A DNA stretch of 49,231 bases from Clostridiales bacterium (GTDB taxonomy: Bacteria; Bacillota; Clostridia; Lachnospirales; Lachnospiraceae): NCBI GenBank assembly GCA_021204085.1, contig JAJPZY010000106.1, positions 1 to 49,231 on the forward strand. Reading direction: 5' to 3'. The notes below the pieces were generated by a model. It did no database searches and had not been told where the DNA came from. It saw only the letters and a list, made by a program, of their open reading frames with translations. The first letter of the stretch is position 1, and each line of letters opens with the position of its first letter. The translations under genes and the position numbers were made by a program. Shown piece by piece: positions 42,175 to 46,749 of this stretch.

Positions 42175-43575
42175 ATGGCAGATATGTTTTATGCCAAAGG
42201 TCCCGGGAACAACGGTTATATAAAGAACCTGGAAGTTCTTGATTTTAACCCCTGGAACGGGAAAAGCGGCGCTTTCCAGATGCAGGTTTACAAGACTGCT
42301 GAAGGCAAGTATTATATCTACGGTTCCTGCTTCGGCGGCACCCAGACCGGCGTTCTGATCGCAGATATTACAGACCCGTGCCACACCAGATTCGTAAAGC
42401 ACCTGCAGCTTCTGGATCCGGATGAGTATCCGACGACATCCACCCCGAAGATTCAGGTGGCGGATGATCTTCTGATCTGTGCGATGACCGCGGGTTCCGG
42501 CCCCGGCGCACTGGTAAACCAGAGCGAGCTGATGGATATGAAGTGTCAGGCCGGCATCCAGATCTGGAGCCTGAAAGAGGACCCGGAGAACCCGAAGTAC
42601 CTGGGTTACTGGGACTGCGGCGTTCCGCATTCCATCGGTGTGCATCGTTTTATGTATAACGGTGGCCCTTATGTTTATCTTTCCTGCGAGAGCATGCGTT
42701 TTGAGGGCATGATCATGAGAATCATCGACATCTCCGATCCGACCAATCCTCATGAAGTGGGGAACTGGTGGTCTCCGGAGCAGTTTGTGGACGGCTATTG
42801 CGGCAGGACAGTCGATCACCATGCGGGACATGTTCCGTCCTTCATGGACAAGGGCTGGATGCACGGACCGCCATTCCGCCGCGACGACGGCATTATGTTC
42901 TGCGGTTACTGCGGCGACGGACTTTATGTACTTGATACGACAGATGTTACCCGTCCGAGAGCAATCGGACATCTGGAGTTTATGCCGGCGTTCTGCAGCC
43001 ATCTGGCCGGAGCGCGTACCCATACAGCACTTCCTCTTCCGGGCCGCGATCTTGTGGTGGTGACCAATGAGGGAGAGCGGTTCCAGTTCTTCCCGCCCGG
43101 CTCGATCAAGGAAGCGCAGGCGATGAACAACCTGCACATGGTTGACGTCAGCGATCCGATAAAGCCGACATTGATCGCGGAGTTCCCGTATCCGGAAGTC
43201 CCCGAGGATTTCCCATATCCGAACTTCAATGTAATGAACCTTGGTTGTCAGGGACCGTTCGGACCGCACAACTTGCATGAGCCGATGAGCAATAAGCCCT
43301 GGCTGGAGCAGCGCGGCGACCGCGTATATTGCTGCTACTTTGCAGCAGGTCTCCGTATCTTTGACGTATCTGATCCTTATTATATCAAGGAGCTGGCATA
43401 CTTTATTCCGCCGAATCCGAATAAGGATCCGAAGGATTCCTTCTTCCCGGATCTGCCGGGTCCGCGCAATGCGATGACAGAGGATTGCTGTGTTGACGAC
43501 AGAGGATATATCTACGTAACCTGCTTTGATGACGGTTTCTATGTACTGAAACGCACCGGAGCGGCTGATAATTAA
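42175..43575 (+). CDS. LVIVD-repeat beta-propeller protein of unknown function
   Basis: The 466-residue protein has repeated blade-like units with D-[IV]-[ST]-DP-x-x-P signatures (DITDPCHTRF, DISDPTNPHEV, DTTDVTRPRAI, DVSDPIKPTLI, DVSDPYYIKEL). This is the LVIVD-repeat family, related in fold to selenium-binding/methanethiol oxidase proteins. Histidines conserved in loop-like positions (PHSIGVH, DHHAGH, GPHNLHEP) could form a metal site at the propeller centre. There is no signal peptide, so it is probably cytoplasmic. It is monocistronic with a strong promoter and ribosome site, and its codon bias is as strong as that of the catabolic cluster, suggesting abundance and an enzymatic role. Substrate not known. 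Confidence 0.8.
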   Translation: MADMFYAKGPGNNGYIKNLEVLDFNPWNGKSGAFQMQVYKTAEGKYYIYGSCFGGTQTGVLIADITDPCHTRFVKHLQLLDPDEYPTTSTPKIQVADDLLICAMTAGSGPGALVNQSELMDMKCQAGIQIWSLKEDPENPKYLGYWDCGVPHSIGVHRFMYNGGPYVYLSCESMRFEGMIMRIIDISDPTNPHEVGNWWSPEQFVDGYCGRTVDHHAGHVPSFMDKGWMHGPPFRRDDGIMFCGYCGDGLYVLDTTDVTRPRAIGHLEFMPAFCSHLAGARTHTALPLPGRDLVVVTNEGERFQFFPPGSIKEAQAMNNLHMVDVSDPIKPTLIAEFPYPEVPEDFPYPNFNVMNLGCQGPFGPHNLHEPMSNKPWLEQRGDRVYCCYFAAGLRIFDVSDPYYIKELAYFIPPNPNKDPKDSFFPDLPGPRNAMTEDCCVDDRGYIYVTCFDDGFYVLKRTGAADN

Positions 43576-43899: not shown

Positions 43900-46749
43900 A
43901 TGAAAAAGAAGATAACGACAGGAATTGTCGCTCATGTAGACGCCGGAAAAACAACGCTTTCGGAGGCCCTTCTTTATCTGGCCGGAAGCATTCGGACATT
44001 GGGAAAAGTGGATAAAAAGGATGCTTTTCTGGATACGAATCAACTGGAACGTGCCAGGGGAATCACGATTTTTTCAAAACAGGCAGGACTTGTATGGAAT
44101 GATACAAAAATCACGCTGCTGGACACTCCGGGACACGTGGATTTCTCCGCGGAAATGGAACGTGTGCTTTCTGTTCTGGATTACGCGATTCTGGTGATCA
44201 GCGGTGCGGATGGCGTTCAGGGGCATACCCGTACTCTCTGGGATTTGTTGAGAACATACGATGTGCCTGTGTTTCTTTTCGTGAATAAAATGGATCAGCC
44301 GGGGACGGATCGCGGGCGGCTGATGGAAGAGTTAAAGACACAGCTGGACAATGCCTGTGTGGATTTTACCGAAGTATTGCCTGCAAAGGGTTCGGACAAC
44401 ATGCGCTCCGATAATTTTACAAAAGGAAAAACAGTTTTCCCGTCAAAGGCGGTTCGGCAGGAGGCGATCGTCTGTGAGGAGTCGGTCATGGAAGATATCG
44501 CGGCCTGTGATGAAACAGTTATGGAGTCTTACTTTGAGACCGGAATGGTGACGGAGACTCAGGTACAAAGATTGATCTGGGATAGAAAACTGTTTCCGTG
44601 TTTTTTCGGATCGGCGCTCAAACTGACGGGTGTGGAAGGGTTCCTGCAGGGATTTGCCCGTTTTTCATTATCAAAAGTATATCCGGCGGATTTTGGCGCG
44701 CGTGTGTTTAAGATTACCCGGGATCCGCAGGGAAACCGTCTGACACATATGAAAATTACCGGAGGGAAACTTAGCGTCAGGGAGGTGCTCTCAAATCGAA
44801 GGCTTGAGTCTGATGCCCGGGAGAACGTCTGGGAGGAAAAAATCAGTCAGATCCGGATTTATAATGGCGATAGGTTTGAGGCAGTGCCGGAAGTTTGTGC
44901 AGGAGAGATCTGTGCGGTGGCCGGCCTTACGAAAACGTATCCCGGACAGGGATTCGGATTTGAATCGGAGACCGGGGCGCCGGTCCTCGAACCGGTGCTT
45001 TCAAGACAGATTCGGTTGCCGGAGGGCGTGGATGCCGGCATTATTCTGCCAAAGCTGCGAATGCTGGAGGAAGAACAGCCGGAGCTTCACATTGTCTGGG
45101 ATGAACGCCTGCAGGAGATTCGGGTGCAGGTGATGGGAGAGGTACAGATTGAAATTTTAAGCAGTCTGATTTCGGAACGTTTTGGTGTTGAAGTTACATT
45201 TGGCCCGGCAAATATTGTGTATAAGGAGACGATTCAAAATACGGTTGAGGGGGTCGGACATTTTGAGCCGCTCCGGCATTATGCGGAAGTTCATCTGCTC
45301 CTGGAGCCTTTGCCGGCGGGAAGCGGATTGGAATTTGCGGCAGATTGCAGTGAAGATATTCTGGATAAGAACTGGCAGCGCCTGGTTTTGACCCATCTGG
45401 GGGAAAAGACACATCGCGGCGTCCTGACCGGTTCCGCCATCACGGATATGCGGATTACGCTTATTGCCGGGCGGGCACATCCAAAGCATACCGAGGGCGG
45501 CGATTTTCGAAAGGCAACCTATCGTGCAGTTCGCCAGGGACTTATGGAGGCTGACAGCCGATTATTGGAGCCCTACTATAATTTCCGCCTGGAGCTTCCG
45601 GAGCAGGCAGTCGGCCGGGCAATGACCGATATTGAGAAAATGCACGGACACTTTGAAGCGCCGGAAAGGGAAGGGGACAACTGTATTCTTACCGGCTATG
45701 CGCCGGTGGTAACCATGCAGGATTATAAGCAGGAGGTCAGCGCTTATACGAAAGGATTCGGACATCTGTCATTTTCACTGCGTGGGTATGAGGTTTGTCA
45801 TAATGAGGAGGACGTTATAGCTGCATGCGGCTATGATCCGGAGGCGGACATTCATAATACGCCGGATTCCGTTTTCTGCGCCCATGGTTCCGGATTTATA
45901 GTACCGTGGTATGAGGTCAGGAAGTATATGCACGTGGAGAGCCCGCTGTCTGCCCATTCGGTTTCTCCGCAGCAGGAGGCCGATCAGGCAAAGCGTCAGG
46001 CGCGCACGGTGTCAGACGTTTGGTTAGGAACCGAGGAAGTAGATGCTATCTTGGAACAGGCGACACATGCGAATCGTGGAAAAAGCTCTGCATCTCGGAA
46101 AGGTGTAGTCAGACGAAGCCGGTCGGACAGATCCGGAGATCCGTTAAGCAAATCATTCCGCAGGGAGGAAAACGACCGCCCTGCTGTTGAATCTACGGAT
46201 GTGAATGGAGCGAATCTTTCAAAAAGAAAGTTCTCCGGCCGCGAAAAGGCAAAAGAAGAATATCTCCTCGTGGATGGTTACAACATCATCTATGCCTGGG
46301 ATGACTTAAACGAGCTGGCGCGCATCAACATGGACGGCGCCAGAGGAAAGTTGCTGGATGAACTCTGCAGTTATCAGGCCATGAAGGGCGTCAACCTGAT
46401 CGTCGTATTCGATGCGTATCGGGTCGCAGGACACACCACCGAGTGTCTGGATTACCATAACATCCATGTGGTGTATACAAAAGAAGCAGAGACCGCCGAC
46501 CAGTATATTGAAAAATTCGCGCACACAAACGCAAAAAAATACGCGGTCACCGTGGCAACCTCCGACGGTCTCGAACAGATCATCATCCGCGGGGAGGGCT
46601 GCCGGCTGTTCTCCGCGAGAGACCTGAAGGAAGATGTAGAGCGGACGAAAGAGTTAGTACGAGAGTTATATACAGATAACAGCATTTCCGGACGCAGTGA
46701 CGAATTTCGAAACGCGGTAGTAGAAGCAGTACGAAAAATAAGCCAGTAG
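43900..46749 (+). CDS. TetM-like translational GTPase fused to a Rae1/YacP-type NYN ribonuclease domain
   Basis: The 949-residue protein begins with an EF-G/TetM-type GTPase: G1 AHVDAGKTT (11-19), RGITI (53-57), DTPGH (75-79), NKMD (129-132), then domains II-V to about 690. The domain IV tip reads AHPKHTEGGDFRK instead of the tetracycline-protection YSPVST pattern. A basic, serine-rich linker (about 705-785) leads to a NYN/PIN-like domain (788-949) resembling B. subtilis Rae1, with acidic residues Asp792 (VDGYNII), Asp838 (VFDAYR), Asp867 (ETADQYIE) and Asp889 (ATSDGLE). Rae1 cleaves mRNA in the ribosomal A site. The fusion suggests a factor that binds stalled ribosomes and cuts message. Drug resistance is not supported. 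Confidence 0.9.
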   Translation: MKKKITTGIVAHVDAGKTTLSEALLYLAGSIRTLGKVDKKDAFLDTNQLERARGITIFSKQAGLVWNDTKITLLDTPGHVDFSAEMERVLSVLDYAILVISGADGVQGHTRTLWDLLRTYDVPVFLFVNKMDQPGTDRGRLMEELKTQLDNACVDFTEVLPAKGSDNMRSDNFTKGKTVFPSKAVRQEAIVCEESVMEDIAACDETVMESYFETGMVTETQVQRLIWDRKLFPCFFGSALKLTGVEGFLQGFARFSLSKVYPADFGARVFKITRDPQGNRLTHMKITGGKLSVREVLSNRRLESDARENVWEEKISQIRIYNGDRFEAVPEVCAGEICAVAGLTKTYPGQGFGFESETGAPVLEPVLSRQIRLPEGVDAGIILPKLRMLEEEQPELHIVWDERLQEIRVQVMGEVQIEILSSLISERFGVEVTFGPANIVYKETIQNTVEGVGHFEPLRHYAEVHLLLEPLPAGSGLEFAADCSEDILDKNWQRLVLTHLGEKTHRGVLTGSAITDMRITLIAGRAHPKHTEGGDFRKATYRAVRQGLMEADSRLLEPYYNFRLELPEQAVGRAMTDIEKMHGHFEAPEREGDNCILTGYAPVVTMQDYKQEVSAYTKGFGHLSFSLRGYEVCHNEEDVIAACGYDPEADIHNTPDSVFCAHGSGFIVPWYEVRKYMHVESPLSAHSVSPQQEADQAKRQARTVSDVWLGTEEVDAILEQATHANRGKSSASRKGVVRRSRSDRSGDPLSKSFRREENDRPAVESTDVNGANLSKRKFSGREKAKEEYLLVDGYNIIYAWDDLNELARINMDGARGKLLDELCSYQAMKGVNLIVVFDAYRVAGHTTECLDYHNIHVVYTKEAETADQYIEKFAHTNAKKYAVTVATSDGLEQIIIRGEGCRLFSARDLKEDVERTKELVRELYTDNSISGRSDEFRNAVVEAVRKISQ

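Follow-up and report, generated by a model that had tools for sequence, protein, structure and literature searches.

Bacterial proteins of two kinds have been linked to the A site of stalled ribosomes. On drug-stalled ribosomes that carry a P-site tRNA, TetM competes for the A site, GTP hydrolysis appears to be required for its departure, and its Pro509 is located in the tetracycline site (PMC8161019). The ribonuclease Rae1 is able to attack A-site mRNA (PMC12320835) and has been proposed to enter stalled ribosomes (PMC10100781). Proteins that combine both kinds of domain, with a Tet-NYN architecture, were reported from ten species of Clostridiales, in passages that assign them no function and offer a new resistance mechanism as a guess (Atkinson 2015, PMC4342817). 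Here we analyse one such fusion, encoded in a 49,231-nucleotide stretch of DNA (the window; contig JAJPZY010000106.1 of assembly GCA_021204085.1) from a Clostridiales bacterium of the Lachnospiraceae, in which a GTPase of the elongation factor G (EF-G) type is joined to a Rae1/YacP-type NYN domain.

With a probability that we put at just under 60%, the fusion is the organism's Rae1, attached behind a dedicated translational GTPase, which probes ribosomes whose A site is vacant, after which the message in that site is cut. The same joint figure covers the claim that the fusion is the Rae1 of these bacteria, for which the supporting evidence is new here and the architecture itself already known. 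An initial annotation, made from the letters of the sequence, had stated that no function was described for such a fusion. This stands as far as our literature search goes, which found none and whose reach did not extend to the main Rae1 papers, although the architecture was already in print.

Architecture of the fusion protein

A single uninterrupted open reading frame (ORF; 43900-46749, + strand) encodes a protein of 949 residues. Its five-domain EF-G-type GTPase (1-684) is followed by a disordered linker and, at 787-938, by an NYN domain of the Rae1/YacP type. Pfam models matched above their cut-offs along this protein: GTP_EFTU at residues 4-251, EF-G domains II-V up to residue 636, and NYN_YacP at 789-938, the last with 160.9 bits against a cut-off of 24.6. 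Among solved chains, the NYN part matched only 5mq8 and 5mq9 ('Uncharacterized protein YacP', E 2e-23), which we take to be Bacillus subtilis Rae1. Residues D7, D53, D81 and D104 of these chains align with D792, D838, D867 and D889 of the fusion (Asp867 corresponding to D81), and Rae1 mutants at D7 and D81 have reportedly been made. All four aspartates are kept in 112/112 distinct complete fusions; in a second, overlapping set they are present in 47/47 fused and 34/34 standalone NYN domains. Moreover, fused and standalone domains share the same residue, at least 90% fixed in each, at 25 NYN positions. The assignment of the NYN fold rests on the match to 5mq8 and 5mq9 together with the secondary structure of the model, and the VIA structure comparison covers residues 1-669.

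The GTPase half has the G motifs, the catalytic histidine and the domains II-V that mark a translational GTPase of the EF-G superfamily. K17 and D75 are present in all 112 fusions, and T56 and the GTPase His79 in 111/112 each. These data suggest that the GTPase and nuclease sites are both intact, with no sign of a dead enzyme. The initial annotation, which had also suggested surveying genomes for this architecture, read the frame as a GTPase joined to a Rae1-type NYN domain with its acidic residues intact. It was right on each count: the frame is unbroken, its domains score above the Pfam cut-offs, the aspartates are invariant, and the fusion recurs in 136/391 genomes of the class. An assembly chimaera, considered as a source of the fusion, was ruled out by this recurrence and by the invariant aspartates.

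Distribution of the fusion and of separate rae1 genes

We surveyed 391 genomes of the class (Clostridia) and 398 genomes of the phylum. In the class sample, NYN_YacP was matched in 248 genomes and the GTPase family, at E 1e-50, in 161, of which 136 carry the fusion, 24 have only unfused GTPases (frames of about 620-730 residues) and one (G220) has only a fragment of the GTPase and no NYN. Some ten of the fused genomes are cut or frame-shifted at contig level, with the frame breaking between GTPase and NYN in G047 and G319; for 49 that initially lacked a listed NYN place, a repeated search put NYN and GTPase together in one long open frame in 49/49. The phylum sample gave matches in 32/398 genomes: 25 fused, 6 unfused and 1 weak and divergent (G732).

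A separate NYN_YacP above cut-off was found in 1/136 fused genomes, compared with 95/230 genomes without the GTPase family (Fisher p 3e-22, uncorrected for kinship), and a few of these 95 (e.g. G168) may themselves be fusions cut by contig ends. Four fused genomes gave a second NYN match, which is below cut-off (21 bits) in three and real in G308. The fusion NYN is the only NYN_YacP match in the window's genome, and the 17 fused genomes of the phylum sample that lie outside the class have one NYN match each, the fused one. Among genomes with unfused GTPases, a separate NYN_YacP is present in 17/24 of the class, the G226 domain described below included, and in 4 of the 6 in the phylum survey; the remaining 7 and 2 have none, nor does G732. 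Co-occurrence of unfused GTPase and separate NYN_YacP (17/24 against 95/230, p 0.008) is given little weight, because 12/17 come from one family (f39). The two genes lie >300 kb apart in five class genomes that have both on one contig (G112, G157, G231, G249, G360).

The gene order rlmB-rae1-sigH was seen in four genomes with a separate Rae1 (G112, G348, G280, G308), NCBIfam cut-offs being exceeded by RlmB and SigH of G308 and by SigH of G112. The window's genome lacks rae1 at this place: rlmB (246.7 bits, above cut-off) and, 86 bp further on, a gene for a SigH-like sigma factor, which at 196.3 bits narrowly misses its cut-off of 208, are direct neighbours. G260 has the same arrangement, its SigH-like gene scoring 206.3 bits. 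None of eight other fused genomes examined shows Rae1 behind rlmB: six have another gene there, the contig ends behind rlmB in G081, and rlmB was not labelled by ORF picking in G154. A search for mrnC gave no NCBIfam match at E 1e-15. The fusion appears to have replaced a separate rae1 gene in many related bacteria.

This replacement also bears on what the nuclease would cut. The GTPase could dock the NYN domain onto ribosomes to cut tRNA or rRNA, in maturation or to inactivate damaged ribosomes, instead of the A-site codon. An earlier proposal, cited in PMC4342817, gave the YacP-like NYN domain a part in the maturation of rRNA and tRNA, and three positions that are near-fixed in standalone Rae1 are relaxed in the fusions. 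We consider such a target distinctly unlikely, given the 25 NYN positions fixed alike in both forms and given that the fusion takes the place of rae1, which is reported to target A-site mRNA (PMC12320835).

Family position of the GTPase

The initial annotation had called the GTPase TetM-like. The description is loose: the GTPase does not fall inside the tetracycline-protection family, and a profile built from 48 fusions scored TetO (392 bits) and EF-G (4m1k, 391 bits) alike. On the NCBIfam model tet_protect the fusion reaches 438.1-439.6 bits, below the cut-off of 775; presumed EF-G proteins of 697-707 residues, with loops checked in two, reach 419-426 bits. True ribosomal protection proteins (RPPs) above that cut-off occur in 7/398 phylum genomes, with 819-876 bits. 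The fusion is not EF-G proper either, scoring 281.5 bits on the EF-G equivalog model against a cut-off of 659.4.

We relied on a GTPase tree of 22 fused and 21 unfused rows rooted on EF-G; an earlier tree, built on every eighth named fused locus, was set aside for its very long EF-G branches and a half-empty EF-G row of its own. One clade (99/95) holds the seven RPP or RPP-like proteins, and its sister (100/99), outside it, is the fused and unfused family together with one divergent relative. By this placement, the GTPase belongs to a separate family, which is a sister group of the tetracycline-protection proteins and not part of them. A further RPP-like group in phylum genomes (L226-L229) scores 580-602 bits on tet_protect and has a loop III of HHVWHTHPxDF type.

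The altered tip of domain IV noticed in the initial annotation was confirmed by comparing loops I and III. These read GHFEPLRHYAEVHL and HxKHTxGGDFR in the fusion family, PPNPFWASIGL and YYSPVSTPADFR (YSPVSTP with Pro509) in RPPs, and GRGQYG and YHxVDSSEMAFK in EF-G. The column of K529, which corresponds to TetM Pro509, holds Lys in 108/112 fusions and Pro in 0/112. Mean pairwise identity in domain IV is 0.69, compared with 0.56 for the G domain (35 fused proteins), and domain IV is also the GTPase domain of highest identity within 28 unfused proteins (0.66) and between fused and unfused ones (0.60). In RPP and RPP-like proteins (n=17) it is not the best conserved (0.52, G domain 0.53). The part predicted to reach the decoding centre is therefore the most constrained one, and the unfused form has it too.

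These comparisons bear on whether the fusion might be a tetracycline-resistance protein with an extra nuclease, as proposed in 2015 and annotated in some records. In favour of this, it is about 29-30% identical to plasmid relatives that bear the names Tet(M), Tet(O) and Tet(Q), its GTPase family and the RPPs are sister clades, a fusion is listed in one record as a member of the TetM/TetW/TetO/TetS family, and a chromosomal TetM-like gene of Bacillus toyonensis confers resistance (PMC5209696). Yet the fusion lies far under the tet_protect cut-off, its tip loops are off the RPP pattern with no proline in the Pro509 column, and a true RPP (819 bits) is found beside it in G025 and G031. In the window's own family the GTPase family is present in 17/17 sampled genomes (16 fused, one split pair, in G226), and the gene sits in a housekeeping stretch, with comEC, holA, gpr, spoIIP, lepA and hemW upstream and lon downstream. 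A resistance function is therefore highly improbable; on this evidence the fusion gene is not a resistance gene, and a stalled-ribosome factor is the more likely identity.

In sequence records such proteins go by translation factor GTPase family protein or TetM/TetW/TetO/TetS family, and resistance names on them may inflate resistance counts. A 933-residue protein of this kind in an Agathobacter rectalis plasmid record (L200 3968-6769, + strand) is annotated as a TetM/TetW/TetO/TetS family tetracycline resistance protein. An unfused member of the fused GTPase clade, encoded near rpsN on the megaplasmid of Ligilactobacillus salivarius CECT 5713 (L198 5968-7902, + strand), is annotated as tetracycline resistance, and its loop III reads ASNVHTVGGDF.

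Origin of the fusion and its linker

In the GTPase tree, the fused GTPases group with one NYN-less member in a single clade (100/99), and 20 unfused proteins group separately (97/90). The NYN tree took in 34 standalone domains, part of those in the survey, and a single branch (97/98) splits 33 of the 34 from the fused domains. The exception is a frame of 190 residues in G226 (L211 6790-7359, - strand), which is nested in the fused group (100/96 for 22 neighbouring fused rows, 97/85 including G226). The two trees fit a single origin of the fusion. Two contigs from a viral collection (L264 and L265, both 1-2181, + strand) start with a family GTPase of 726 residues without NYN; lysin-like genes downstream in L264, read by eye, suggest that this GTPase probably belongs to host DNA flanking a prophage.

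The C-terminal extension (637-684) is mostly well predicted in the model and is common to the unfused GTPases, whose ends lie there; a Pfam scan of residues 639-787 gave no match. Beyond it, the linker is the least conserved part of the 112 fusions, with a predicted local distance difference test (pLDDT) score <50 at residues 686-710 and 719-782, and the spacing between residues 678 and 788 ranges from 63 to 147 residues (median 80). Within this otherwise disordered stretch, the ELxxIFxRTYG helix (46030-46074) is a conserved island: residues 711-725 are helical in the model, and E713 and I717 are kept in 105/112 and 108/112 fusions, respectively. The unfused GTPases end upstream of this helix. 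These are aligned counts; a stricter pattern demanding D or E before E713 was too strict, matching 28/119 fusions and 0/26 unfused proteins.

A model for the fusion and the points that weigh on it

Because TetM and Rae1 both act at the A site of stalled ribosomes, the two parts of the fusion would recognise the same state. The GTPase would bind ribosomes in the state recognised by TetM, in which the P site holds a tRNA and the A site is empty, and would insert its family-specific domain IV tip into the decoding centre. GTP hydrolysis would free domain IV from the A site, and the flexibly tethered NYN domain could then move into the vacated site and cleave the codon in it, in the manner of Rae1 in Bacillus subtilis. 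The truncated message would be handled by tmRNA, which is present in the genome (154.5 bits). Domain IV and the NYN domain would hardly fit the decoding centre together, which suggests the order of domain IV probe, hydrolysis and NYN cut. A handover of this kind may lie within reach of the linker, whose conserved helix may set the geometry.

The model starts from the domains, the intact GTPase and nuclease residues, the lack of a separate rae1, trees compatible with a single origin and strong conservation, and it adds steps that we infer: ribosome binding, GTP dependence, the probe-then-cut order, cleavage and the stalls targeted. The initial annotation had already suggested an A-site nuclease coupled to a GTPase. 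That idea gains from the fusion NYN being the sole NYN_YacP match and from the disappearance of rae1 from its usual place, and its ribosome binding, GTP-driven entry and cleavage belong to the steps just listed.

Several points weigh against this reading. First, the handover must be assumed, since domain IV and NYN could hardly occupy the decoding centre at once. Second, no neighbour is conserved across 99 fusion loci, the commonest neighbour cluster occurring in 14, at scattered positions. Third, NYN positions 892, 903 and 908 are the ones relaxed in fusions, so that contacts may differ from those of standalone Rae1. Fourth, the 7/24 unfused class genomes that have the GTPase without any NYN_YacP suggest that the tip has a job of its own. 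Finally, the two parts can separate. The NYN-less member of the fused GTPase clade is a Ligilactobacillus salivarius megaplasmid protein, which probably lost its NYN. The NYN of G226, for which the best reading is a Rae1 freed from a fusion within the window's own family, lies away from rlmB with no family GTPase in the surrounding 14 kb. G226 also encodes an unfused GTPase, which belongs to the other clade.

The separations and the NYN-less genomes favour a looser arrangement, in which the NYN domain would act as an ordinary Rae1, the GTPase would have a separate ribosome job, such as clearing or resetting the A site, and the fusion would serve only to hold Rae1 close to ribosomes, with no GTP-driven cleavage step. 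The tip loops shared with unfused GTPases and the long, disordered linker fit this as well. However, separation is rare, with one freed NYN recognised against 136 fused genomes (not every standalone NYN being in the tree), and the conserved helix in the linker suggests a coupled geometry, which makes a mere tether unlikely.

We favour the reading of the fusion as a Rae1 carried by a GTPase that probes the A site. A wider proposal, which we hold tentatively and at slightly less than even odds, is that a GTP-timed rescue factor inspects the decoding centre of stalled ribosomes, cuts the A-site codon and replaces free Rae1 in a large part of the Clostridia, while the unfused sister is an unnamed A-site GTPase acting on the same stalls without cutting. 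If this is true, about a third of the class sampled (136/391) would destroy messages on stalled ribosomes by a GTP-dependent machine, and the fusion would be a natural tool for learning how an A-site nuclease is licensed. Some chromosomal 'tetracycline resistance' genes would be translation-quality factors, which matters for resistome counts, and the unfused sister family, to which no studied name can be assigned, would become a candidate A-site factor.

Feature map and gene surroundings

Between hemW and the fusion lies a gene (42175-43575, + strand) for a protein of 466 residues that presumably resembles an LVIVD-type repeat protein; it has no NCBIfam match at E 1e-30. For an RNA leader upstream of the fusion, 11 Rfam matches were obtained, every one under its gathering score. 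Promoter-like sites numbered 3 against 3.3 expected, and terminator-like sites 7 against 4.0 expected (standard deviation 2.1).

Table 1. Positions in the window of the fusion gene and of the parts of its product.
Feature	Residues	Position	Strand	Basis
Whole ORF, 949 aa, GTPase-NYN_YacP fusion		43900..46749	+	ORF list, Pfam
G domain, GTP_EFTU; D14, K17, T56, D75, H79, K130, D132 kept	4-251	43909..44652	+	Pfam, fusion alignment
EF-G domain II	265-345	44692..44934	+	Pfam
EF-G domain III	364-435	44989..45204	+	Pfam
EF-G domain IV, best conserved domain of the family	439-551	45214..45552	+	Pfam, alignment
Domain IV loop I, VGHFEPLRHYAEVHL	452-466	45253..45297	+	Loop comparison
Domain IV loop III, GRAHPKHTEGGDFR; K529 aligns with TetM Pro509	524-537	45469..45510	+	Alignment
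EF-G domain V	554-636	45559..45807	+	Pfam
C-terminal extension, SVFCxHGxGF..W..V..YMH	637-684	45808..45951	+	Loop and unfused comparison, structure model
Disordered linker	685-786	45952..46257	+	pLDDT, low conservation, length spread
Short conserved linker helix, consensus E-L-x-x-I-F-x-R-T-Y-G	711-725	46030..46074	+	Alignment, model
NYN_YacP (Rae1-type) nuclease domain; D792, D838, D867, D889	787-938	46258..46713	+	Pfam, PDB alignment, fusion alignment, model

Comparison with known systems

The Tet-NYN proteins of Atkinson 2015 have the same architecture as the fusion; the passages of that account (PMC4342817) that deal with them contain no mention of Rae1 replacement, tip loops or origin. 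With the Tet-type RPPs (TetM, TetO, TetQ) the fusion shares the EF-G-like domain order, about 30% identity and a sister-clade position, but it has other domain IV loops I and III, no Pro509, an additional C-terminal extension and the NYN tail. It differs from EF-G in a loop I without GRGQYG, a loop III without VDSSEMAFK and a score under the EF-G cut-off. The unfused sister GTPases (about 650 residues; e.g. L079, L086) have the same tip loops and the same SVFC..W..V..MH-type extension, but stop at this extension, without linker or NYN, and form a separate clade (97/90).

With Rae1/YacP the fusion shares the NYN_YacP domain and its four acidic residues. Unlike Rae1, whose usual though not strictly defining position is behind rlmB, the NYN of the fusion is encoded at 46258-46713 of the window; its three relaxed positions depart from the near-fixed state of Rae1, and it is tied by a disordered linker to a five-domain translational GTPase.

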